A stretch of 64,000 nucleotides of DNA from assembly GCF_003812745.1 (NCBI RefSeq), contig NZ_CP033831.1, positions 2,046,001 through 2,110,000 of the forward strand, written 5' to 3'. This DNA comes from Serratia sp. FDAARGOS_506 (GTDB taxonomy: Bacteria > Pseudomonadota > Gammaproteobacteria > Enterobacterales > Enterobacteriaceae). Positions within the stretch are counted from its first letter, which is position 1, and every line of letters starts with the position of its first letter. The position numbers were made by a program, and so were the translations under genes. Positions 1,298 through 17,400 of the stretch are shown here, one piece after another. The notes below the pieces were generated by a model that was given only the letters and a program-made list of their open reading frames with translations, had not been told where the DNA came from and did not search any database.

Positions 1298-1414
1298 GAT
1301 CGCGTTCTTGCATTTCGGCGCGCCGGATGCTTTTTTTAACAGTACTGGCTGCCATGCGGCCAACCCCATCCGAAATCGGTAGATTGTTAATGTATTAATA
1401 ATGGCGAGGCGGGT

Positions 1415-2173
1415 ATGGATATTCAGGTTGAACGCTTGTCTGCGGTGATCGATGCGGTGGCCAGCCCGCGCTTTTATCCCAGCCTGTTGAACTGGCTGGA
1501 AGGGTTTTTCGCCTTCGACAACGCCATCGTCTATGCCTTCGAACGCGGCCGGCCGCCGCGCTGCCTGATCAAAACCGAACGGGAAAACAGCGATGCGGTT
1601 AACCAAATCTACCAACAGGGCGCCTATCTGCAGGATCCGTTTTACCGCGCGCTGAATGACGGCGGCGAAGGCGAGGTGCTCACGTTGCGCCAGCTGGCGC
1701 CCTGCGGGTTTTATCACAGCGACTATTACCGTAATTTTTATCGCAAGACCGGCTGGCACGACGAGGCCGGCGTGCTGCTGCAGTTGACGCCGGAGCGCGG
1801 GCTGGGGGTGTTCTTCGGCTCGGCGTGCCGCACGGTGGCGGTGCGCTACCCGCAGCGGGCGGATCTGCGCAGCGCGCTGACGCTGGTGAAAAGCGTGGCA
1901 CGGCTGCATGGCGAAGTGGTGGCGGCACCGGCCGAGGCCGACACGGGGAACGACGATGGCGCGCAGGCGCGTTATCTGTTGACGCCGCGCGAGCGCGAGA
2001 TCGTCGATCTGATCCTCGCCGGTTGCGGTTCGCAGCAGATTGCCGACCGGCTGTTCATCAGCCTCGGCACGGTAAAAAATCACCGCAAGAACATCTATGG
2101 CAAGCTGAACATCGGCTCACAGGCCGAACTGTTCAGCCTGTTGCTGACCGCCCCGCAGCGCCGCAGCGCGTGA
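1415..2173 (+). CDS. LuxR-type transcriptional regulator
   Basis: This 252-residue protein has a C-terminal LuxR/NarL-type DNA-binding domain (about residues 185-245; LTPREREIVDLILAG, then the helix-turn-helix ending ISLGTVKNHRKNIYGKL). The N-terminal part (DPFYRAL, a YYRNFYRKTGW stretch) resembles a small-molecule sensing domain rather than a phosphorylated receiver: no receiver-type aspartate pocket is evident. The N-terminal layout is shared with the regulator at 7340-7987, so the two look like paralogues. It lies just upstream of the FAD oxidoreductase, and a perfect dyad at 2195-2210 between them is its most likely binding site. The inducer is unknown. Confidence 0.8.
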   Translation: MDIQVERLSAVIDAVASPRFYPSLLNWLEGFFAFDNAIVYAFERGRPPRCLIKTERENSDAVNQIYQQGAYLQDPFYRALNDGGEGEVLTLRQLAPCGFYHSDYYRNFYRKTGWHDEAGVLLQLTPERGLGVFFGSACRTVAVRYPQRADLRSALTLVKSVARLHGEVVAAPAEADTGNDDGAQARYLLTPREREIVDLILAGCGSQQIADRLFISLGTVKNHRKNIYGKLNIGSQAELFSLLLTAPQRRSA

Positions 2174-2194: not shown

Positions 2195-2239
2195 TGTCCC
2201 TAAGGGGACATAGCGGCACGGCTGCCGGCTCCCGATAAT
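2195..2239 (+). promoter_or_regulatory. Candidate LuxR-type operator and promoter of the FAD oxidoreductase gene
   Basis: A perfect dyad TGTCCC-TAAG-GGGACA (2195-2210) is followed by ATAGC and, 31-32 bp from its centre, by a -10-like GATAAT (2234-2239). There is no good -35 box, which fits activation from a site near -42. The GTCC...TAAG...GGAC core and trailing ATAG match the two dyads at 8311 and 11372. Confidence 0.55.
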
Positions 2240-2274: not shown

Positions 2275-3576
2275 GTGAACAACGAAATCGAGTCCTTAAC
2301 CTACTACGCGGCGACCAAAAAATACGATCTGCGCTTCCCGACGCTGGAAGAGGATCTGGACGTCGACGTGGTGATCATCGGCGGCGGCTTCTCCGGCATC
2401 AACACCGCGCTGGAGCTGGCGGAGAAGGGCATCACCAACATCGCCATTCTCGAAGGCCGCTATCTGGGCTACGGCGGCACCGGGCGCAACGGCGGTCAGG
2501 TGATGGCCGGCATTGGCCACGATCTGGAGAAGATCAAGCGCCACGTTGGCCCGGCCGGGCTGGAAACCATCTTCAAAATCAGCAACCTTGGCGCCGGTAT
2601 TATCCGCGAGCGCATCAAAAAATATGACATCGACGCCGACTTCTGCTTCGGCTACGGCTATCTCGGCAGCAACGCGCGCCAGGAGAAGACCCTGCGCGGC
2701 TGGCTGAAGGAGTTCAAGGCGGTAGCGCCACAGGAGGAGATTGAGCTCTACACCGGGGCGGAGGTGAAGCAGGTGGTGGGCTCCGACGCATACACCTGCG
2801 CGCTGAAACACATGGGCGGCGGCCACGTGCACTCGCTCAACCTGCTGCTGGGCGAGGCCAAGGCGCTGAGCGGCTACGGGGTGAAAATCTTCGAGAACAG
2901 CAGCGTGCTCAACGTGGAGTATGGCCCGCGCATCACGGTGCGCACCGCCATGGGCTCGGTGCGTGCCAACAAGATGCTGTGGGCCTGCAACGGCTTCCTC
3001 AACGGCATGGAGCCGCAGATCTACCGCAAGACCATCAATACCTACGCCTTCCAGCTGGCCACCGAGCCGCTGTCTGACGAACTGATCCGCCAGATCAGCC
3101 CGATCCGCGGCGCCTACAGCGACATCCGCCCGGTGATCGACTATTACCGGGTGACCAACGAAAACCGGCTGCTGTTCGGCAGTGCCACCCGATTGATCGA
3201 ATATTTCCCGTCGGATCTCAAGGCCTGGAACCGCAACCTGATGCTGAAGGTGTTCCCGTACCTGAAAGACGTGAAGATCGATCTGGCCTGGGGCGGCCCG
3301 CTGTGCTGCAGCGCCAACCTGTTCCCGCAGATCGGCACGCTGCCGGATCGCGACAACGTGTTTTACGTGCAGGGCTACTCAGGCTTCGGCGTAACGCCGA
3401 GCCACATCGTGTGCAAGGTGCTGGCGGAGGGCATGAGCGAAGGATCCGATCGTTACGATCTGATGAGCTCGATCCCGCACGTCAACATTTTCGGCAAGGA
3501 CAAGCTGCGGCGGGTGATGACCACCGCCGGTAAGGTTTGGCACCAGACATCCGGCTACTGGAAAGGCCGCCGTTAA
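2275..3576 (+). CDS. FAD-dependent oxidoreductase, PuuB-like
   Basis: This 433-residue protein belongs to the DAO family of FAD oxidoreductases and resembles gamma-glutamylputrescine oxidase (PuuB), which oxidatively deaminates an amine to an aldehyde. The dinucleotide-binding motif VVIIGGGFSG is near residues 33-41, followed by the GRNGGQ segment; near the C-terminus lies YVQGYSGFGVTPSH, typical of the FAD-binding end of the family. The start is a GTG with GGGAG eight bases upstream (2263-2267). A cupin gene follows after 18 bp. The pairing with a cupin, a LuxR-type regulator and an alcohol/aldehyde dehydrogenase suggests catabolism of an amine, but the substrate is not defined by sequence. 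Confidence 0.8.
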   Translation: MNNEIESLTYYAATKKYDLRFPTLEEDLDVDVVIIGGGFSGINTALELAEKGITNIAILEGRYLGYGGTGRNGGQVMAGIGHDLEKIKRHVGPAGLETIFKISNLGAGIIRERIKKYDIDADFCFGYGYLGSNARQEKTLRGWLKEFKAVAPQEEIELYTGAEVKQVVGSDAYTCALKHMGGGHVHSLNLLLGEAKALSGYGVKIFENSSVLNVEYGPRITVRTAMGSVRANKMLWACNGFLNGMEPQIYRKTINTYAFQLATEPLSDELIRQISPIRGAYSDIRPVIDYYRVTNENRLLFGSATRLIEYFPSDLKAWNRNLMLKVFPYLKDVKIDLAWGGPLCCSANLFPQIGTLPDRDNVFYVQGYSGFGVTPSHIVCKVLAEGMSEGSDRYDLMSSIPHVNIFGKDKLRRVMTTAGKVWHQTSGYWKGRR

Positions 3577-7339: not shown

Positions 7340-7987
7340 TTAACCGTGGGCGAGAAAGCCGCTGGCGACCAGTTCGGTGCGGTTCACCACGTCGGTTTTG
7401 GCAAAAATATTGCGCATATGGGTTTTCACCGTGGACAGCGAAATGCCCAGCTTCAGGGCGATGCGCTTATTGCTGGCGCCTTCGCGCACCATGTTGACGA
7501 TCTCTTGCTCTTTGGCGGTCAGCAGCTGCGCCTCGCCGTCGGGCAGCAGATCGCGCGTCGCCAGCTCGATCAGCGGCAGCACCGCGCGCAGGCGGCCGCG
7601 TTCCACTTCGGTAAACGGGGTGTCACGGATCAGCGATACCCCGGCGACGATGCGCTTGCGCTGGCGGATGAAGATCTCCGTCATGTCGCGCATGTCGTTC
7701 GGCAGCATAAAGTCGTGGTAATAGCGGCGGTTGCCGGCGATCGCCGCCGGGCTCATGCCGACCATGGTAATGTCCTGACGATGGAAATTGGCCGGCTGCA
7801 GCGGGTCTATCTGCTGGAAGTGGTTCAGGTACTGCTGATGCGTTTTATCGGGCATGCCATGCAAGATGTAGTGATCCGGCCGCAGGTCGCGATCGACCAG
7901 ATAGAACACCCCGGCGGACACCGGGATCAGGTGCGTGATGGTCGCCAAACAACTGTTGATAAAGGCATCGGATGCTGTGCTGTGCAT
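7340..7987 (-). CDS. LuxR-type transcriptional activator, MoaR candidate
   Basis: A 215-residue regulator with a C-terminal LuxR-type helix-turn-helix (LLTAKEQEIVNMVREGAS, then ISLSTVKTHMRNIFAKT). The N-terminal region (IDPLQPANF, YYHDFMLPNDM) is a probable ligand-sensing domain, paralogous in layout to the regulator at 1415. The start at 7987 is chosen because GGAGG lies ten bases upstream. The gene is divergent from the arylsulfatase and near the MoaE/MoaF-like genes. In Klebsiella the monoamine regulon is activated by MoaR, which also has a C-terminal HTH of this kind; equivalence is inferred from context. Its likely targets are the dyads at 8311 and 11372. Confidence 0.75.
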   Translation of the reverse strand: MHSTASDAFINSCLATITHLIPVSAGVFYLVDRDLRPDHYILHGMPDKTHQQYLNHFQQIDPLQPANFHRQDITMVGMSPAAIAGNRRYYHDFMLPNDMRDMTEIFIRQRKRIVAGVSLIRDTPFTEVERGRLRAVLPLIELATRDLLPDGEAQLLTAKEQEIVNMVREGASNKRIALKLGISLSTVKTHMRNIFAKTDVVNRTELVASGFLAHG

Positions 7988-8469
7988 GATTCGTGTTCCT
8001 CCCTTTATCATTCAATCTGGAGAAGGTTGGCGGTCAATATATGAACGATACAAGCATAGTTGTAGCAATTTGGCAACACAATAAAAACATATTAACAACG
8101 TGAGGCTGATTGCAATAAAACACATAAATAACAAGATGACACTGCATTAATCAGGGCTTTTCATGGCGGATTTATCGCGATTTTCATTAATAGGTTAATG
8201 AAATGGTTCACCGCTTTTCCCGCTGAATTTACAGCGCTTTTCAAGGCTTGCCCGGGTGAAGCCGCCTCCGCCCTGCGCGTGCTACAGCTGTCGTTGCCGC
8301 CGCCGCCTCTCGTTCTTAAGAACGATAGCCAGGCTTTTCCACCGCTTCCTACACTGCGAATTGAAGATAGCGCCAGGCGGCGCCAAACGTATAAGACGAA
8401 AAAATGATGACCTTTCTCGGGCTGAGGCGTCGGGTTGTTCAGTCCGCATGACCATACAGGGGACGGACG
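7988..8469. promoter_or_regulatory. Divergent intergenic region between the LuxR gene and atsA
   Basis: This 482-bp gene-free stretch is AT-rich from about 8030 to 8200, which probably holds the regulator's own promoter. It contains the atsA activator dyad at 8311-8324. A short open frame from 8198 has no ribosome site or recognisable product. Confidence 0.6.
8311..8355 (+). promoter_or_regulatory. atsA promoter with activator dyad
   Basis: A perfect dyad CGTTCTTAAGAACG (8311-8324) is followed by ATAGCCAGGCTTTTCC and a -10-like TACACT (8350-8355). The start of the dyad is exactly 39 bp before the -10, the same as at 11372. No -35 consensus is present, so a class II-like activator site centred near -44 is inferred. 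Confidence 0.7.
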
Positions 8470-10182
8470 ATGCAGAAAAAAACGTTGGCGGTGGCGTTGA
8501 GCGGCGCCTTATCGGGCCTGGCGCAGGGGGCGGACGTCGATCGCCCCAACGTGCTGATCATTCTGGTGGACGATATGGGCTACTCCGACATCAGCCCGTT
8601 CGGCGGCGAGATACCGACGCCCAACCTGCAGGCGCTGGCCGAACGGGGCGTGCGCATGAGCCAGTACTACACCTCGCCGATGTCGGCGCCGGCGCGGTCG
8701 ATGTTGATGACTGGCAACACCAACCAGCAGGCCGGCATGGGCGGCATGTGGTGGTATGAGAGCACCGCCGCGCAGCCGGGCTATGAAATGCGGCTGACCG
8801 ACCGCGTGACCACATTGCCGGAGCGCTTTCGCGACGCGGGCTACGCCACCATGATGGCGGGCAAATGGCACCTGGGCTATGTCGACGGCGCCAAACCGAC
8901 CGATCGCGGCTTCGAGCGCGCCTTCGCCTTTATGGGGGGCGGCACCAGCCATTTCGACGATGCGAAACCGCTGGGCACCGTGGAGGCGTTCCATACCTTC
9001 TACACCCTGAACGGTAAACGCGTGTCGTTGCCCAAAGATTTCTATTCCAGCAAGGCCTATGCCGATCAACTGGAACAGTGGATCCGCGATACGCCGCAGA
9101 GCAAGCCGATCTTCGCCTATCTGGCCTTTACCGCGCCGCACGATCCGCTGCAGGCGCCGGATGACTGGATCGCCAAATTCGACGGCAAATACGACGCCGG
9201 TTACCAGCAGGCCTATCAGCGGCGCATTCAGCGCCTGAAGGCGCTGGGGCTGATCTCCGAGCGCACGCCGATGCCGACGCTGGCGCTGGATAAGGCCTGG
9301 AACGCGCTGACGCCCGAGCAGCAAAAATATGAAGCCAAGACCATGCAGGTGTACGCGGCAATGATTGCTTACATGGACGATCAGGTCGGTGCGGTGCTGA
9401 ACACCCTCAAGCAAACCGGCCGCGACCAAAATACGGTGATCGTGTTCGCCACCGACAACGGCGCCAACCCCGCCAGCGGCTTCTACTACGGTTCGAAGCC
9501 GGAGTATTGGCGGCAGTTCGACAACAGCTACGCCAACCTCGGCCGCAAGGGATCGTTCATCTCCTACGGGCCGCACTGGGCCAACGTCAGCAACGCGCCG
9601 TACGCCAATTACCACAAAACCACCAGCGCACAGGGCGGCATCAATACCGATTTCATCATCTCCGCGCCGCGGCTGAAGGGGCGTGGCGGCATCGACCGCA
9701 CGCCGATGGCGGTGTATGACATCGCGCCGACGCTGTATGACTATGCCGGCATCGACGCCAACAAACCGCTGAAAGCCAAGCCGACGCTGCCGATGGTCGG
9801 CGTCAGCTTCAAGCGCTATTTCAGCGGCGAGGCAGACGGCGTGCCGCGTGCGACCTACGGCGTGGAACTGCATAACCAGGCCGCCTATGTGGATGGCGTC
9901 TGGAAGCTGCGGCGGTTGGTGAAGGCCGGGCCGACGGCGCAGATGGCGCCGTGGGGGCTGTTCAACCTGCATGACGATCCGCTGGAAACGCGCGATCTGG
10001 CCGCCGCCAACCCGGATCGAGTCAAACGGCTGAGCGAGGCGTATCGCCGCTTTGCGCAGCAGAGCATGGTCATTGAAGCCAAAGGTGAAGCGATCGACTA
10101 CCTCGGCGTTGACGCCAGCACCGGTGACTATATCGGCCTGGATCCGCAGACCCACAAACCGTTGCCGCAGGCGGCGCCATGA
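8470..10182 (+). CDS. atsA: Periplasmic arylsulfatase, Ser-type
   Basis: A 570-residue sulfatase that hydrolyses aryl sulfate esters. A signal peptide is likely at residues 1-20 (cut near LAQGA). The catalytic signature is [12 protein letters not shown] with the modifiable serine at residue 72, the residue position known for Klebsiella AtsA; the start chosen gives this numbering. Serine-type sulfatases need conversion of this serine to formylglycine by a radical-SAM maturase, which is the next gene. Other family marks are the metal site LVDDMGY, KWHLGY and ATDNGANP. The stop overlaps the maturase start by four bases. Natural substrate unknown; tyramine-type or other aromatic sulfates fit the neighbourhood. 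Confidence 0.92.
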
Positions 10183-11363
10183 ACCTGGCCCAGCTGCGCG
10201 CGCAGCAGATCCCGGTAGAGAGCGAACCGCGCGCGGCGGTGCCTTTTCATTTGCTGGTGAAGCCGATCGGCGCCGGCTGCAACCTGGGTTGCCGTTACTG
10301 TTACTATCCGCAGCGCCAGGAAGAACGGACGCGCAAGATGGACGACGACCTGCTGGCGGAATTTATCCGCGGCTACATCGCCGCCCAGCCGCGTTACAGC
10401 CGCGAGATCAACTTCGTCTGGCAGGGCGGTGAGCCGCTGCTGGCGGGGATCGGTTTTTACAAGCGGGCGCTGGCGCTGCAGCGCCGCTATGCGCCGCCGG
10501 GCGTGCGGATCAGCAACAGCCTGCAGACCAATGGCACCCTGCTGAACGACGCCTGGTGCCGGCTGTTCCGGCAACATCACTTTATCCTCGGCGTCAGCCT
10601 GGACGGCGACCGCGAGGTGCAGGACGCCCACCGGCCGGACAAGCGCGGTGGCGCCAGCTATGACGCCGCGCTGCGCGGCATCGCGTTGCTGCAGCGCCAT
10701 CAGATCGACTTCAACCTGCTGATGGTGGTGCACGACGGCGTCGCGGATCGCGCCGAGGCGATCTACGATCATGCGGTGGCGATCGGGGCGCGCTATCTGC
10801 AGTTCCAGCCGCTGATGCTGGAAGGGGACGCGCCCACCGCCGGCTATGGGCTGAGCGCCGCCAACTGGGGGCGCTTCATGCTGGCGGTATACCGCCGCTG
10901 GCGCAGCCGCGGGCACGTCGGCCAGGTCTTCGTGATGAACATCGAGCAGGTCTACGCACAGTATTTTACTCACGTCAGCCCCAGCTGTGTACACGCCGAA
11001 CGCTGCGGCGGCAATCTGGTGATGGAGCCGGACGGGCGGCTTTACGCCTGCGATCATCTGATCAACGCGCAGCACCTGCTCGGCCATGCCGATCGCCACA
11101 CGCCGCTCGCCACCCTGGCGGCAAGGGCGGCGGAGATGCCATTCGGTAAAAACAAGAGCCTGCGCCGCGAGTGCCAACGCTGCAGCGTGAAAAGCGTCTG
11201 CCAGGGCGGCTGCCCGGCGCATGTGGGCGAAGATCGCTACAACCGGCTGTGCGCCGGTTATTACGCCTTCTTTTCCGCGCTGCTGGCGCCGCTGCGTGCC
11301 TATCCGCGCAGCCCGCAGGGAGCGAGGCAGTGGCGCGCCGCCGTGAGCGCGGCCGCAGGTTGA
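10179..11363 (+). CDS. atsB: Anaerobic sulfatase-maturating radical SAM enzyme
   Basis: This 394-residue radical-SAM/SPASM protein converts the active-site serine of the adjacent sulfatase to C-alpha-formylglycine. The radical-SAM cluster motif is C34-x3-C38-x2-C41 ([13 protein letters not shown]). The SPASM cysteines for two auxiliary clusters are visible in [19 protein letters not shown] and [17 protein letters not shown]. Length agrees with AtsB/anSME proteins (about 370-410). The ATGA overlap with the sulfatase stop indicates translational coupling. Confidence 0.92.
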
Positions 11364-11371
11364 AACCGTCT

Positions 11372-11416
11372 CGTCCTTAAGGACGATAGTCAGCATTTTC
11401 CTTTCCTCTCTATAGT
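11372..11416 (+). promoter_or_regulatory. Promoter of the permease-moaEF-like operon with activator dyad
   Basis: A perfect dyad CGTCCTTAAGGACG (11372-11385) is followed by ATAGTCAGCATTTTCC and TATAGT (11411-11416) as -10. Its core, its trailing ATAGYCAG and TTTTCC, and the 39-bp dyad-to--10 distance repeat the arrangement at 8311-8355. It lies between atsB and the permease, so the latter genes form a separately started but co-regulated unit. Confidence 0.7.
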
Positions 11417-11492: not shown

Positions 11493-12986
11493 ATGAACCT
11501 GTCGTCGCGGTTGCACGCCCACCTGGCTCGAGGCAAGGTCGGCTTTCCCACCACCTTGGCCAGTTCGGTCGGGGTGATCATGGCCAGCCCGGTGATCCTG
11601 ACGGTCACCAGCGGCTTCGGCATCGGCGGCGACACCTTCGCGCTGGCGATGCTGATCGCCTTCATCATGATGCAGGCGCAGCTCACCACCTTCTCCGAAG
11701 CGGCGGCGCTGCTGCCGACCTCCGGCTCCGTTTACGACTATATCTCCTGCGGCATGGGGCGTTTTTTCGCTATCACCGGCGCGCTGTCGGCCTACCTGAT
11801 CGTGCATATCTTCGCCGGCACCGCCGAGACCATTCTTTCCGGCATCATGGCGTTGGTGAACTTCGAGCACCTCAACACCCTGATGGAAAGCCACAATGCC
11901 TCCTGGATGGTCGGCGTCGGGCTGGTTGTCGTGTTCGGCCTGCTCAACGCGTTCGGCATCGAGGCCTTCGGCAAGGCGGAGATCGTGCTGACCTTCGCCA
12001 TGTGGAGCACGCTGGTGATTTTCGGCATCGTCGGGCTGCTGTCGCCGCATGCGGTGCCGCTCGAGGGCTGGTTCGGCAGCACGCTGAGCCTGAACGATCC
12101 CTTCGCGGTGTTCAGCCTGATCGGCATGGCGATGTTCATGTTCGTTGGCTGTGAACTGGTGACGCCGATGGCGCCGGAGATCAAACGCTGCGATCGGGTG
12201 ATCCCGCGCGCGATGGCGCTGGGGCTGTGCGGCGTGGCGGTGTGTATGGCGCTGTATGGCGCGGCGCTCAGCCACCAGGTGGAAAACGTGGTGATCGACG
12301 CCGCCAGCGGCACGCGCCTGCTGGAAACGCCGATGGCCATCCCGGCGTTCGCCGGCCAGGTGATGGGCCAGTTCGGCAAATATTGGCTCGGCGTCGGCCT
12401 GCTGCTGGCGGGCGCCGCGACCATCAACACGCTGATGGCGGCGGTGCCGCGCATTCTGTACGGCATGGCGCTGGACGGCGCGCTGCCGCGCATGTTCGCT
12501 TATCTGCACCCGCGCTTTAAGACGCCGGTGGTCGGCATTCTGGTGGCGGTATTGATCCCCTGCGTACACGCCTTCGCCATTCAGGGCAATCTCGACAGAA
12601 TCATACCGCTGGTGCTGGCGGCGGTGTGCGCCTGGGGCGTGGCCTACCTGCTGGTGACCTGCTCGGTGGTGATCCTGCGCGCACGTCGCCCCGATCTGCC
12701 GCGTGCCTATAAATCGCCGTGGTTCCCGCTGCCGCAGATCGTTTCCAGCGTTGGCATCGTGCTGGCCATCGTTTACATCACGCCGCCGGGAATGAACCCG
12801 AGCGATATCTACATTCCCTTCGGCTGGATGATCGGCCTGACTGCCGCCTATGCGCTGTTCTGGACGCTGTGCGTGCAGAAAGTGAATCCGTTCAAGCCGG
12901 TGCCGGTCGAGCAGGTGCTGGAGAACGCATTCGCCAAGGGGGAAAACGAGGAGGCGCAGTTTGATCGGCTTACTTCCCTCACTTAA
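11493..12986 (+). CDS. APC-family amino acid/amine permease
   Basis: A 497-residue inner-membrane transporter with about twelve hydrophobic segments and the amino acid-polyamine-organocation family pattern (ASSVGVIMASPVIL near residues 24-37; FSEAAALLPTSGSVYDY near 66). The ribosome site GAGGAAA precedes the ATG. It heads an operon containing MoaE- and MoaF-like genes, the place where a tyramine permease would be expected, so an aromatic-amine uptake role is inferred. Other amino acid-like substrates cannot be excluded. Confidence 0.8.
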   Translation: MNLSSRLHAHLARGKVGFPTTLASSVGVIMASPVILTVTSGFGIGGDTFALAMLIAFIMMQAQLTTFSEAAALLPTSGSVYDYISCGMGRFFAITGALSAYLIVHIFAGTAETILSGIMALVNFEHLNTLMESHNASWMVGVGLVVVFGLLNAFGIEAFGKAEIVLTFAMWSTLVIFGIVGLLSPHAVPLEGWFGSTLSLNDPFAVFSLIGMAMFMFVGCELVTPMAPEIKRCDRVIPRAMALGLCGVAVCMALYGAALSHQVENVVIDAASGTRLLETPMAIPAFAGQVMGQFGKYWLGVGLLLAGAATINTLMAAVPRILYGMALDGALPRMFAYLHPRFKTPVVGILVAVLIPCVHAFAIQGNLDRIIPLVLAAVCAWGVAYLLVTCSVVILRARRPDLPRAYKSPWFPLPQIVSSVGIVLAIVYITPPGMNPSDIYIPFGWMIGLTAAYALFWTLCVQKVNPFKPVPVEQVLENAFAKGENEEAQFDRLTSLT

Positions 12987-13551
12987 CCGTGCCTGGCGGC
13001 GAGCGCCGTCGGGCTATCGGCCGGGCGCTGCGCTGGATCGTCTGGTGCGCAATCTGGAACCCTACGCGTGCGAACGCCTGGCGCCGGGACTGCTGCGGCT
13101 GACGCTGCCGCAGGGGCCGCAGATCGAGGTCAGTGAACAGGTGCAGGGGCTGTTTATGGCGCATATCGTCAGCCACCGCTTTCGGTTGCAGGGCCCGTGC
13201 GCGATGCAGCTTCCGCTGACGCTGGACGTGGTGACCGGCGGCTGGCTGCGGCGGTGCGGGGTGCGTTATCTGCTGCGCCAGCGCCATGCGGCCGCGCAGC
13301 AGGTGCTGGACGGCCTGCAGCGTTACCCGCAGATCGGCGAGACGCTGGCGCAGCTGGATTTTCGCCGCGTGCAGCTGACGGTGAACGACGGGCGTTGGCA
13401 GGTGGATATTGAGCATTTCGCCGCGTCGGAGGTGGTCAGCTGTTTGCCGGTCGGCCGCCGCTATCTGCGGCTGGATGCCGAACAGCGGCGGCTGCTGTTG
13501 AGCAGCCTGCTGATGATCGGCCAACTGATGGAGAAGCTGAATCATGAGTAG
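12961..13551 (+). CDS. DUF3156 family protein
   Basis: A 196-residue soluble-looking protein that resembles the DUF3156 family. There is no signal peptide, membrane segment or recognised catalytic motif; it is arginine- and leucine-rich. The TTG start has GAGGAGG six bases upstream, within the end of the permease gene (26-bp overlap), and its own stop overlaps the next SDR start by eight bases. This strict coupling indicates a role in the same pathway, perhaps accessory to the permease or the dehydrogenase. The function is unknown. Confidence 0.65.
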   Translation: MIGLLPSLNRAWRRAPSGYRPGAALDRLVRNLEPYACERLAPGLLRLTLPQGPQIEVSEQVQGLFMAHIVSHRFRLQGPCAMQLPLTLDVVTGGWLRRCGVRYLLRQRHAAAQQVLDGLQRYPQIGETLAQLDFRRVQLTVNDGRWQVDIEHFAASEVVSCLPVGRRYLRLDAEQRRLLLSSLLMIGQLMEKLNHE

Positions 13552-14326
13552 AGTGGTTGTGATTACCGGCGGCGGTACCGGCGTCGGCGCCGCCTGCGCA
13601 CGTCTGCTGGCGGCGCAGGGTGATCGGGTGTTCATCATCGGCCGCCGCCCGGAACCGCTGGCGGCGCTGGCGCAAGAGATCGGCGCGCAGGCGCTGGTGG
13701 GCGATGCCGCCAGCGGTGAGAGTTGGGCCCACACGCTGCTGCCGGCCATTCTGCGTGAAGCCGGGCGCATCGACTGCCTGATCGGCAGCGCCGGCGGCAT
13801 GGGCTTCAAGCGCATCACCGAGATGACCGACGCGCAGTGGCAAGGGGCGATGGACAGCAACCTCAACAGCGCTTTCGCCAGCGCGCGCGCCTGCCTGCCG
13901 GAGCTGATTAAAAGCGGCGGCAATTTGCTGTTTGTGGCCTCGATCGCCTCGCTGGCCGCCGGGCCGGAGGTCTGCGGCTACGTCACCGCCAAACACGCGC
14001 TGATCGGGCTGATGCGCTCCATTGCCCGCGACTATGGCCCGCTGGGCGTGCGCGCCAACGCGGTGTGCCCGGGCTGGGTGACCACGCCGATGGCGGACGA
14101 AGAGATGCAACTGCTGATGGACGCCCATCAGATTTCGCTGGAGCAGGCTTACCAGATGGTCTGCCGCGACGTGCCGCTGCGCCGCCCGGCCAGCGCCGAG
14201 GAGATCGCCCGCGTGTGCCGTTTCCTGTGTTCCAGCGAAGCTTCAATCATTACCGGCGCGGCGCTGGTGGCCGACGGCGGCTCCACCATCGTCGATGTGC
14301 CGACCCTGGCTTTCACTTCCCTGTAA
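13544..14326 (+). CDS. Short-chain dehydrogenase/reductase, MoaE-like by context
   Basis: A 260-residue SDR with the NAD(P)-binding motif TGGGTGVGAA near residue 8, catalytic serine in FVASIASLAAG, and Y-x3-K in GYVTAKHALIG. Its C-terminal part ends with VADGGSTIVDVP. It is directly before MoaF, and Klebsiella MoaE is an SDR-type protein encoded in a moaEF operon, so it is probably the MoaE counterpart. Its reaction is not established. Confidence 0.75.
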   Translation: MSRVVVITGGGTGVGAACARLLAAQGDRVFIIGRRPEPLAALAQEIGAQALVGDAASGESWAHTLLPAILREAGRIDCLIGSAGGMGFKRITEMTDAQWQGAMDSNLNSAFASARACLPELIKSGGNLLFVASIASLAAGPEVCGYVTAKHALIGLMRSIARDYGPLGVRANAVCPGWVTTPMADEEMQLLMDAHQISLEQAYQMVCRDVPLRRPASAEEIARVCRFLCSSEASIITGAALVADGGSTIVDVPTLAFTSL

Positions 14327-14337
14327 GGAGCATTTCC

Positions 14338-15135
14338 ATGAGTTCAGAAGCGGTATTCATTCAGGTTGGCGCACTGGCGGAAGGCTTTGCGCCGCACAGC
14401 AATACACTGGAACAGCAGCACGGGTTGGCGGGCACCATGCTGACGCTGCGTTTTCGCGACGGCGCGGCGCAGCGCTGCCGGTTCATCGACGAGCAGACGC
14501 TGGAGTGGGGGGAGCGGCGCGGCGTCGCCTATCGCGCCACCAGCATTCGCCCCGGCGTGCTGTTCATCGATTTTCTCGATCCTGCCCGCGCCAACGCCAG
14601 CATTACGCTGGTATGCGACCGCAATCAGGGCAACTTCACTGCGGTATACGGCCAGTTGCCGGACGAAGCGCAGGCGCGGCTCGACGCCTTCAGCCGGGTG
14701 GAGCAGGGGCTGCCGCTGACCGCGGTCGAGGCCGAATTCCGCTTCGGCACGCTGGATGACGCCGACGTGGCGCCACCGGGCTTTACCGATGAGCTGATCG
14801 GCATGCGCAACATGTACACCTACAGCCCGACCGAGCGGTACGAGCACATCTACCTGAACGACAACTTCTACGCCTGGCAGTGTCTGGACGGGGTGGAAAA
14901 GGGGCTGGCGGACGTCGATCGCTGCCACTACGTGAAGGTGGCGGAGCAGCTTTATCTGTTCGTCTGGCGCGAGAAGATCATCCCGACGCTGGGCGTGGTG
15001 ATGATCGATCTGCAGGGCATGCGCACCGACGGCAAGATCCTCGGTTATCAGGGCAGCGATTTCAGCGCGCTGAGCAACTTTGCGGTCGGCGCCCATGCGC
15101 AGGTGCTGAACACCACGCGACACCCGCGAGGATAG
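14338..15135 (+). CDS. moaF: MoaF family protein
   Basis: This 265-residue protein has the features of MoaF, a protein of the Klebsiella monoamine (tyramine) regulon: an N-terminal half with a lipocalin-like beta pattern (FRDGAAQRCRFIDEQTLEWG) and a C-terminal half with a second similar repeat (YEHIYLNDNFYAWQCL). AAGGAG lies seven bases before the ATG. It sits between two SDR genes in one operon. The biochemical activity of MoaF is not known; the name rests on resemblance and gene order. Confidence 0.75.
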   Translation: MSSEAVFIQVGALAEGFAPHSNTLEQQHGLAGTMLTLRFRDGAAQRCRFIDEQTLEWGERRGVAYRATSIRPGVLFIDFLDPARANASITLVCDRNQGNFTAVYGQLPDEAQARLDAFSRVEQGLPLTAVEAEFRFGTLDDADVAPPGFTDELIGMRNMYTYSPTERYEHIYLNDNFYAWQCLDGVEKGLADVDRCHYVKVAEQLYLFVWREKIIPTLGVVMIDLQGMRTDGKILGYQGSDFSALSNFAVGAHAQVLNTTRHPRG

Positions 15136-15139
15136 GGCG

Positions 15140-15931
15140 ATGAGCGCAACCTATGCGGCCGACGCCTTCACGGGGCAGGCGGTGCTGGTGACCGGCGGCG
15201 CTCAGGGCATTGGGCTGGCGATCGTCAGCGCCTTTGCCCGGCTGGGCGCCGAGGTGACGATCGCGGACGTGCAGCTGCCGCAGGCGCAGGCGGCGGCGCA
15301 GGCGCTGCGGGACGAAGGGCTGAGTGTGCAGGCGCTGGCTTGCGATCTGGCCGAACCGGGGCAGATCGCCGAGCTGGTGACGGCGGTAGGTGAGCGGCAT
15401 CAACGGCTGGACGTGGTGATCCACAATGCCGCTTACTTTCCGCTGACGCCGTTCGCCGCTATTGACGCGGCCCTGCTGCAACGCACGCTGAGCGTCAATC
15501 TGATGGCACCGTTCTTTCTGGCGCAGGCGGCGCTGCCGTGGATGCGCCGCCGGGGCGGCGGCTGCCTTCTGGTGACCTCGTCGGTGACCGGCCCGCGGGT
15601 GGCCTACCCGGGGCTGGCGCATTACGCCGCTTCCAAGGCCGGGGTGAACGGGTTTATTCGCGCGGCGGCGCTGGAGCTGGCGGCGGAGAAAATTCGCGTC
15701 AACGGCGTGGAGCCGGGGATGATCCGCACGCCGGCGATGGCCAATCTGGGCGACGCGCAGGTGAATCAGGCGATCGCGGCCTCGGTACCGCTCGGGCGGC
15801 TGGGGGAACCGGAAGACATCGCCGCGGCGATGGTGTTTCTCGCCTCGCCGGCGGCGGCCTACATCACCGGGCAGACGCTGGTGGTGGACGGCGGCGCGCT
15901 GTTGCCGGAAACGAATTCTCTGCTTACTTGA
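15140..15931 (+). CDS. Short-chain dehydrogenase/reductase
   Basis: A 263-residue SDR with the TGGAQGIG cofactor motif near residue 18, a catalytic serine in LLVTSSVTG, and Y-x3-K in HYAASKAGV, followed by EPGMIRTP and a C-terminal VVDGGALLPE. It starts four bases after moaF and ends the operon. The substrate is unknown; an alcohol or aldehyde derived from an aromatic amine is possible. Confidence 0.8.
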   Translation: MSATYAADAFTGQAVLVTGGAQGIGLAIVSAFARLGAEVTIADVQLPQAQAAAQALRDEGLSVQALACDLAEPGQIAELVTAVGERHQRLDVVIHNAAYFPLTPFAAIDAALLQRTLSVNLMAPFFLAQAALPWMRRRGGGCLLVTSSVTGPRVAYPGLAHYAASKAGVNGFIRAAALELAAEKIRVNGVEPGMIRTPAMANLGDAQVNQAIAASVPLGRLGEPEDIAAAMVFLASPAAAYITGQTLVVDGGALLPETNSLLT

Positions 15932-15987: not shown

Positions 15988-16440
15988 TCACTTCTTGGCA
16001 GGATGCGCTGTGACGTTGGCGGGCAGGCTGTCGCCCAGGGTGATCAGCTCGTCCAGCAGCGTCATCAACTGGTCCATTTTCTGCTGCGAAAAGGCGGCTT
16101 CAATCTCGGCGTAGCCCTGTTCCACCTGGTGGCGCGCCACTTCATACAGATCCTGGCCTTGCTGGGTCAGCGACACGTACAGCTTGCGCTGATCGTTGAC
16201 CGGTTTCAGGCGGAAGATCAGCTTGTCGCGCTCCATGCGCGACAGAATGCCTGTCAGGCTGGGACGCAGAATGCAGGTTTCCGCCGCCAGTTCGTGGAAT
16301 TCGATCGAACGGCTGTTGGCCAGCACGCGGATGATGCGCCATTGCTGTTCGGTCAAATTGTGGCTTTTCAGGATCGGGCGGAAGAACCCCATGGCGGTTT
16401 CACGCGCCTGCAGCAGGGCGATGGTTAACGATTCATGCAT
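15988..16440 (-). CDS. hpaR: HpaR, MarR-family repressor of the hpa meta-cleavage operon
   Basis: A 150-residue MarR-type repressor (winged helix about residues 35-100; LTEQQWRIIRVLANSR, LRPSLTGILSRMERDKLI, NDQRKLYVSLTQQG). It closely resembles E. coli HpaR, which represses hpaGEDFHI and its own gene until 4-hydroxyphenylacetate or homoprotocatechuate is present. The start at 16440 (MHESLTIALLQARE) matches the known N-terminus; an in-frame ATG 21 bases upstream is less likely. It is divergent from hpaG1, and the shared intergenic region carries dyads expected for its operators. Confidence 0.93.
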   Translation of the reverse strand: MHESLTIALLQARETAMGFFRPILKSHNLTEQQWRIIRVLANSRSIEFHELAAETCILRPSLTGILSRMERDKLIFRLKPVNDQRKLYVSLTQQGQDLYEVARHQVEQGYAEIEAAFSQQKMDQLMTLLDELITLGDSLPANVTAHPAKK

Positions 16441-16598
16441 AAGTTTGGCCTTAGCTATCAAGGTGTTCGCTGTTACGGCGCTCGTTATGGGGGCGCCTGC
16501 CCCGCAAAGCCCGATTTTGTTAATAACTTAATAGTAGCCAAAGTTACCCGTAGGGATAAAGCAAAAATGCGGGGTGCAGCGAAAAATGGCGCGAAAAA

Positions 16599-16712: not shown

Positions 16713-16730
16713 TCATTAATATATTAATGA
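16713..16730. promoter_or_regulatory. Candidate HpaR operator, hpaG-proximal
   Basis: TCATTAATATATTAATGA is a perfect 18-bp palindrome just downstream of TATAAA (16702-16707) and 38 bp before the hpaG1 start codon. A bound MarR-type dimer here would block transcription of the operon. Confidence 0.65.
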
Positions 16731-16767: not shown

Positions 16768-17400
16768 ATGAAAGGCACCGTATTTTCCGTTGCGCTGAAT
16801 CACCGCAGCCAACTGGACGCCTGGGATCAGGCGTTTCACCAGCCGCCGTATCAGACCCCGCCCAAAACCCCGGTCTGGTTTATCAAACCGCGCAACACCC
16901 ACCTCGCCAACGGCGGGGCGATCCCGTTCCCGGCCGGTGAAACCGTTCACAGCGGCGGCACGCTGGCGGTGATCATCGGCGATACCGCGCGCAAGGTGCC
17001 GGCAGCGCAGGTGAGCCGTTATCTGGCCGGTTATGCGTTGGCCAACGACGTCAGCCTGCCGGAGAGCAGCTTCTACCGCCCGGCGATCAAGGCTAAATGC
17101 CGCGATGGGTTCTGCCCGCTGGGGGAGATCGGCCAGTTGGCGAATGCCGATCGGCTGGAGATCGTCACCGAGATCAACGGCGTGGAGCAGGATCGCTGGT
17201 CCACCGCCGATCTGGTGCGCTCGGTGCCGGAGCTGATCGCCGCCATCAGCGACTTCATCACCCTGCAGCCGGGCGATGCGGTGCTGATCGGCACCCCGCA
17301 CCAGCGGGTGGAGATCAAACCGGGGGATGAGGTGACGGTGCGCGCCGCCGGCCTGCCCACTCTGACCAACCGCGTCGCCCAGGCAGGAGCCGCATCATGA
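16768..17400 (+). CDS. hpaG1: HpaG1, N-terminal-half HpaG protein of the 4-HPA pathway
   Basis: A 210-residue fumarylacetoacetate-hydrolase-fold protein. In E. coli HpaG is one fused protein (about 429 residues) that acts as OPET decarboxylase and HHDD isomerase in homoprotocatechuate breakdown. Here the N-terminal half is a separate gene. FAH-fold marks include FIKPRNTHLANGG, the LAGYALANDVS segment and LQPGDAVLIGTP. The start follows GGAGG. Its TGA overlaps the hpaG2 ATG (ATGA), and GGAG lies about seven bases before that ATG, so the split is genuine and not a frameshift. Confidence 0.9.
   Translation: MKGTVFSVALNHRSQLDAWDQAFHQPPYQTPPKTPVWFIKPRNTHLANGGAIPFPAGETVHSGGTLAVIIGDTARKVPAAQVSRYLAGYALANDVSLPESSFYRPAIKAKCRDGFCPLGEIGQLANADRLEIVTEINGVEQDRWSTADLVRSVPELIAAISDFITLQPGDAVLIGTPHQRVEIKPGDEVTVRAAGLPTLTNRVAQAGAAS

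Follow-up and report, generated by a model that had tools for sequence, protein, structure and literature searches.

Predicted MoaR operators at the arylsulfatase and permease-moaEF promoters of a Serratia amine-utilisation cluster

MoaR is a regulator that has long had its name, dating from the 1990s. The consensus site of the regulator NarL is a pair of inverted heptamers with two bases between them. An excerpt of PMC6813237 states that MoaR activates atsBA and moaEF, and the open-licence literature searched yielded neither a described MoaR binding site nor a primary MoaR paper. Here, we analyse a stretch of 64,000 nucleotides from Serratia sp. FDAARGOS_506 (contig NZ_CP033831.1, positions 2,046,001 to 2,110,000; the whole stretch is called the window), in which a LuxR-type regulator gene lies divergent to an arylsulfatase operon and two matching palindromes precede the promoters of this operon and of a permease-moaEF operon. 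Both palindromes are very probably docking sites of the adjacent amine-utilisation regulator, MoaR. The link between MoaR and its targets is already in print, and the new element is a predicted operator that is well supported at the sequence level.

Two dyads and the adjacent regulator

The perfect 14-bp palindromes CGTTCTTAAGAACG (8311-8324) and CGTCCTTAAGGACG (11372-11385) each gain one T-A pair, giving a 16-bp dyad TCGTYCT-WW-AGRACGA with a 7-2-7 layout of inverted heptamers around a two-base WW centre. The predicted operators are thus MoaR box 1, TCGTTCTTAAGAACGA (8310..8325), at the ats promoter, and MoaR box 2, TCGTCCTTAAGGACGA (11371..11386), at the promoter of the permease operon (operator-type sites are given without strand throughout). 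Box 1 has its near end 323 bp from the start codon of moaR. In both promoters, the -10 box on the plus strand (TACACT, 8350..8355, for atsA-atsB; TATAGT, 11411..11416, for the permease operon) is found 39 bp from the start of the 14-mer and 40 from that of the 16-mer. A sequence-only reading of this DNA had described perfect palindromes at 8311 and 11372, each set 39 bp before its -10 box and followed by ATAGYCAG and TTTTCC. Positions, symmetry, spacing and shared motifs were all confirmed.

That reading also held such agreement to be unlikely by chance, and the genome bears this out. CGTYCTTAAGRACG has two exact matches in 4,862,745 bases, both being these promoters. At two mismatches, the 14-mer finds 20 further places, which is not above chance; a backward control of the pattern gives 128 places at up to two mismatches against 22 for the pattern itself. 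With the 16-mer and its W centre, only two more places appear at up to two mismatches, each with two, and the backward control gives 49 places against 4. Since the control is commoner than the pattern at this level, two-mismatch sites far from the cluster are meaningless. Surroundings were examined for two of the 20 places: 727717 (GGTTCTTAAGAACT) lies between response-regulator-like and divergent reading frames, and the match at 2816761 runs over the beginning of a reading frame of ABC-transporter type by resemblance. Place 1906524 from the 16-mer scan has no recognisable gene downstream. Within the window, a scan at up to three mismatches gave 8 matches with 4.96 expected; three of the six weaker matches (39767, 39896 and 40019) were rejected as boxes, each being within a tRNA-Leu gene.

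Judged by sequence and gene neighbourhood, the divergent regulator, a LuxR/GerE-type protein of 215 residues (7340..7987, minus strand), is MoaR. Its GerE domain scores 54.7 bits against a curated cut-off of 23.5. The protein is 59% identical to a relative from Klebsiella pneumoniae, which in turn is 94.7% identical (residues 25-214) to the K. aerogenes 'Monoamine regulon transcriptional regulator', whose gene adjoins AtsB, AtsA, MoaE and MoaF according to the annotation. Both a full-length relation to the K. aerogenes regulator and adjacent ats and moa genes were found. A structural model, for which 48 sequences were drawn from the window and the 64 loci described below, reached a mean predicted local distance difference test score of 85.9. 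Its C-terminal part matches NarL, LiaR and VraR, and its N-terminal part matches LasR-type ligand domains and, about equally, a GAF-type domain. From this model, MoaR appears to be a LuxR solo that has a pocket for a ligand.

Box and regulator travel together. Among 119 genomes, the Serratia genome itself included, 29 bear the regulator (long match, E <= 3e-64), and 28 of these have a dyad near it that departs from the pattern at one position at most. The exception, G031, has only three-mismatch sites in its regulator stretch. A one-mismatch match occurs in 6 of the 90 genomes without the regulator (Fisher test, p 2.7e-20, a value that ignores kinship and overstates). Comparative genomics largely supports the proposal that the protein encoded at 7340-7987 acts on the dyads. 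The locus comparison started from 346 confirmed stretches, of which the 80 best were kept; 16 of the 80 (L139 and L141-L155, distant or DNA-binding-domain matches) were left uncounted. Of the resulting 64 orthologue loci, which run from Serratia to Klebsiella, Salmonella, Photorhabdus and Providencia, 58 have a box with up to two mismatches in the 700 bp before moaR. Box density there is about 60-fold that of the rest of these loci. Among the sites elsewhere, 26 of 30 precede permease, SDR-moaF or FAD oxidase genes by no more than 300 bp.

The dyads might instead bind another regulator and merely lie beside moaR, for example a distant global regulator or LuxR2, a second LuxR-type regulator described below. 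LuxR2 is also of GerE type and comes from the same cluster, and the matches in regulator-less genomes fit such a view. However, the box is kept in loci of Klebsiella, Raoultella, Salmonella arizonae, Prodigiosinella, Xenorhabdus and S. silvae with no luxR2 match in the locus stretch (luxR2 was not sought in whole genomes), the FAD-oxidase promoter carries a different dyad in all 34 luxR2-bearing sequences, and G002, a genome of 5.4 Mb from the same genus that lacks moaR, has no dyad. We consider this alternative unlikely.

If the transcript starts 7 nt past the -10 box, as we assume, the dyad centre would fall near -44, as originally proposed. The near end of the dyad then extends into the -35 region, and the -35 hexamer found there is a poor one, which points to a class II-type activator role for MoaR. 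In this mechanism, a small aromatic-amine-related ligand in the LasR/GAF-like N-terminal domain would presumably switch MoaR on. A MoaR dimer would bind the 16-bp dyad through its NarL-like C-terminal domain and recruit RNA polymerase to both promoters, that of ats and that of permease-moaEF. We assign a probability of roughly 0.87 to the dyads being MoaR operators from which MoaR acts as a class II-type activator of both promoters.

Target promoters across lineages

Promoters were compared for gene copies that stand first in their operon, a rule that left out 9 of 60 permease, 6 of 14 atsA, 8 of 14 atsB, 19 of 26 SDR and 20 of 46 FAD oxidase copies. A box with up to three mismatches precedes 50 of the 51 remaining permease copies (35 exact), and TATAGT[GT] stands at offset 40 in 38 of these 50 promoters. 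All eight operon-first atsA copies of Serratia combine the box with TACACT at offset 40. In Klebsiella, Raoultella, Enterobacter sp. and Salmonella, where atsB comes first, the box is found in 6/6 operons; for SDR-moaF the count is 4/7. The dyads are conserved upstream of ats and moaEF orthologues, and the check in related genomes did not refute the original claim.

Across seven representatives of six genera (two of them Serratia), identity is 0.85 in the dyad, 0.78 in the -10 box, 0.50 in the ATAGYCAG/TTTTCC stretch and 0.33-0.36 in the flanks. The ATAGYCAG and TTTTCC motifs, shared by the two promoters of this genome, are less conserved across genera than the dyad and -10 box and thus look like lineage-specific promoter sequence. 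The ats and permease promoters are identical at 28/33 positions over TCTCGT...TTTTCC, non-operator bases included. The ats promoter could have been copied recently from that of the permease operon, in which case the likeness would reflect descent only. The conservation of the dyad over dissimilar flanks, and its presence with yet other flanks at the FAD oxidase and SDR-moaF promoters, make this very unlikely as the whole explanation; copying and function are in any case compatible.

The two-base centre of the dyad varies (TA, TT or AA) while the half-sites and the -10 spacing are kept. This bears on a reading as RNA hairpins, in which the palindromes would form a leader structure before atsA and a terminator after atsB. 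Dyad 2 starts 8 bases past the atsB stop codon and could sit in the tail of the ats mRNA, but a terminator scan reported neither dyad, on which ground the hairpin reading was rejected, and both dyads lie upstream of their -10 box. We regard hairpins as extremely improbable and keep to MoaR operators.

Several observations weigh against the reading of the dyads as operators of MoaR acting as a class II-type activator. Three regulator-bearing genomes (G003, G011 and G029) hold one further stray one-mismatch site each, far from moaR, and the backward control pattern gives 0-4 one-mismatch matches per genome. One genus supplies 25 of the 29 regulator genomes, so relatedness inflates the counts. 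In six loci (L092, L110, L130, L131, L132 and L137), the region upstream of moaR holds no site at two or fewer mismatches. The best TATAAT match puts the spacing at 38 rather than 40 in three of six Klebsiella-type atsB promoters, and at 37 in three of four SDR rows. The permease promoter has a weak -35 match, TAGTCA, at 18 bp, and is possibly not wholly activator-dependent. This -35 match and the tie between GAF-type and LasR-type matches of the MoaR N-terminus slightly lower confidence. Lastly, the regions of maoCA, a reported MoaR target, have no box in 7 kb in Klebsiella, Raoultella and Enterobacter sp.; their best sites show 4, 4 and 5 mismatches, no better than shuffles (maoC is named by position). 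The missing maoCA box limits the box-defined regulon and not the orthology of MoaR, whose control of maoCA would be indirect or exerted via another site.

Judged by the box, the proposal of a two-operon regulon holds for this genome, which has no third place with 0-1 mismatches, and is too narrow for other lineages, which add FAD oxidase and SDR-moaF boxes.

Some Serratia lack ats genes. In seven such loci (L077, L079, L081, L082, L084, L086 and L087), two dyads persist with 125-329 bp between them, and the second lies 329-338 bp away from moaR. The ats -10 box is retained in S. marcescens MSU97, present as a variant in S. ureilytica and gone in S. plymuthica, S. liquefaciens, S. proteamaculans and S. 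quinivorans. The moaR-near dyad may be a relic or may serve moaR itself. A row scored as permease in the spacing comparison can stand for this second dyad in a Serratia without ats. One dyad is present in L091 and none in L092. In S. oryzae (L090), both dyads are kept and a reading frame of 557 amino acids (7653-9326) lies between them, at the ats position of this genome.

In the window, the first target operon comprises atsA, encoding an arylsulfatase (8470..10182; Pfam Sulfatase), and atsB, encoding an anaerobic sulfatase maturase of the radical SAM type (10179..11363; TIGR03942 above cut-off). The second is headed by an amino acid permease family protein (11493..12986; Pfam AA_permease_2), followed by a DUF3156 protein (12961..13551), an SDR oxidoreductase (13544..14326), moaF (14338..15135; Pfam MoaF_C and MoaF) and a second SDR (15140..15931), all genes of both operons being on the plus strand. 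The earlier label moaEF is right as to moaF; the counterpart of the K. aerogenes protein annotated MoaE is the SDR at 13544-14326, and the frame at 12961-13551 is the DUF3156 gene.

A second LuxR-type regulator and HpaR-type sites

The gene that we call luxR2 (1415..2173, plus strand) encodes the second LuxR-type regulator, whose model (alignment of 25 of 33 luxR2 loci and the window) shows a VqsR-like ligand-domain fold with modest confidence. Downstream lies an FAD oxidase-cupin operon with the -10 box GATAAT (2234..2239, plus strand), 39 after the start of TGTCCCTAAGGGGACA (2195..2210), a dyad related to the MoaR box that is probably the operator of the adjacent LuxR2. The FAD-dependent oxidoreductase (2275..3576, plus strand) is named by resemblance, and its positional counterpart in K. 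aerogenes is annotated puuB_3. [GC]ATAAT stands at offset 39 from the LuxR2 box in 34/34 sequences, scored with a consensus derived from the same loci.

Where luxR2 is absent, the FAD-oxidase promoter carries MoaR boxes. Klebsiella-type and Salmonella loci have two of them with starts 15 bp apart (up to three mismatches), and the K. aerogenes record has the same pair. A Fisher test of this switch gives p 2.6e-11 without one exception and 2.5e-10 with it, both overstated because kinship is ignored; on a tree of 46 FAD proteins, two changes of the luxR2 label suffice (1-2 in bootstrap trees). The recognition-helix residues are K188-T189-R192 in MoaR and K221-N222-K225 in LuxR2.

Both regulator genes have sites of a third kind upstream. 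The MarR-type regulator gene hpaR (15988..16461, minus strand; TIGR02337 HpaR above cut-off) is part of the same neighbourhood. TCATTAAYRNRTTAATGA occurs exactly at two genome places: as the HpaR-type operator TCATTAATAGGTTAATGA (8184..8201), between moaR and box 1, and as TCATTAATATATTAATGA (16713..16730), before the hpa operon, whose gene at 16768 is hpaG by position. Two further genome places match with one mismatch, and a degenerate site with three mismatches (1384..1401) lies just upstream of luxR2. TCATTAAYRNRTTAATGA contains TTAA-N4-TTAA, which the excerpt of PMC7180172 gives as the HpaR core of Yersinia pseudotuberculosis; the excerpt does not itself state a link between HpaR and moaR, and that link we infer. 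As we read the matches at up to three mismatches, such a site stands 209-277 bp upstream of moaR in 18/18 Serratia loci and before hpaR in each of the 16 Serratia loci covering its surroundings. The 14 Serratia loci with luxR2 all have one 13-15 bp before that gene. Providencia has a weaker form, possibly a chance match given AT-rich DNA; Photorhabdus shows little. These sites suggest that 4-hydroxyphenylacetate control may cover both LuxR-type genes.

The HpaR-type site of moaR sits well upstream of the likely moaR promoter (8053-8081, minus strand: TTGTGT, 17 bp, TATGCT), which is part of a strongly conserved block of ~115 bp. The palindrome-like GCTGAATTTACAGC at 8222-8235 is largely kept in a 13-row alignment of Serratia moaR upstream regions. 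TTAA-N4-TTAA occurs once more towards hpaR (16519-16536), an arrangement like the two-site layout reported for Yersinia. One of the one-mismatch sites (G000:C2:584316-584333, L185) lies ~106 bp before a transporter-like reading frame, MFS by eye.

Published expression data touch on this layer. In the excerpt of PMC10364317, an ipdc mutant of S. plymuthica A153 lowers RS12455 (LuxR, -3.22), RS12465 (-2.01), RS12475 (histone deacetylase, -2.54), RS12485 (LuxR, -3.87), RS12500 (SDR, -2.71) and RS12515 (hpaR, -2.94), with the hpa operon lowered alongside; calorimetry with HpaR saw no ligand binding (PMC10364317). By numbering, names and the gene order of S. plymuthica NBRC 102599 (L081), the six would fit luxR2, cupin, histone deacetylase, moaR, SDR and hpaR. 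As excerpted, the table omits the would-be FAD, lipase-like, MFS, permease, DUF3156, moaF and second SDR numbers, so that support for target control is partial.

These elements may form a nested circuit, with HpaR above MoaR and LuxR2, which would share one promoter architecture and use operators differing only inside the heptamer; the FAD-oxidase operon would have been handed over, with MoaR boxes where luxR2 is absent and a LuxR2 box where it is present. We see the odds for this circuit as even. The hand-over and the HpaR layer are the more novel parts of this analysis, and both are inferred. If true, the hand-over would be a natural cis-trans specificity switch brought about by a few base and recognition-helix changes. 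How DNA specificity changes in LuxR-type regulators could be tested compactly on the pair of MoaR and LuxR2 boxes. The HpaR-type sites in turn point to a way in which the use of sulfatase, amines and 4-hydroxyphenylacetate may be linked.

Comparison with known systems

With a 16-bp site and near-rigid promoter spacing, the direct MoaR regulon could be read from a genome: ats, permease-moaEF and, in some lineages, FAD oxidase are the predicted direct targets, with maoCA probably indirect. The site also supplies exact fragments for binding tests.

The closest system is the monoamine regulon of K. aerogenes, which shares the orthologous regulator and the clustering of arylsulfatase, sulfatase maturase, MoaE-type SDR and MoaF. 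Serratia differs in having atsA before atsB and in a permease and a DUF3156 protein that head the moaEF operon; the genome analysed here shows no match to copper amine oxidase. The dyad resembles NarL-type 7-2-7 sites, with inverted heptamers round a two-base centre, and the DNA-binding domain of MoaR is NarL-like by sequence and model. In contrast to NarL, the predicted heptamer is TCGTYCT and a LasR/GAF-like ligand domain takes the place of the receiver domain. Both MoaR domains give matches to LuxR types with acyl-homoserine-lactone-binding domains (LasR, SdiA, QscR and RhlR), the N-terminal one with a GAF-type match about as good, and full-length superposition is loose (TM about 0.5, root-mean-square deviation about 9). 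The lux box is unlike the 16-bp MoaR dyad. Finally, the locus shares with the 4-hydroxyphenylacetate repressor HpaR, as far as the excerpted source describes it, the TTAA-N4-TTAA core before hpaG, and the same core recurs here upstream of moaR.
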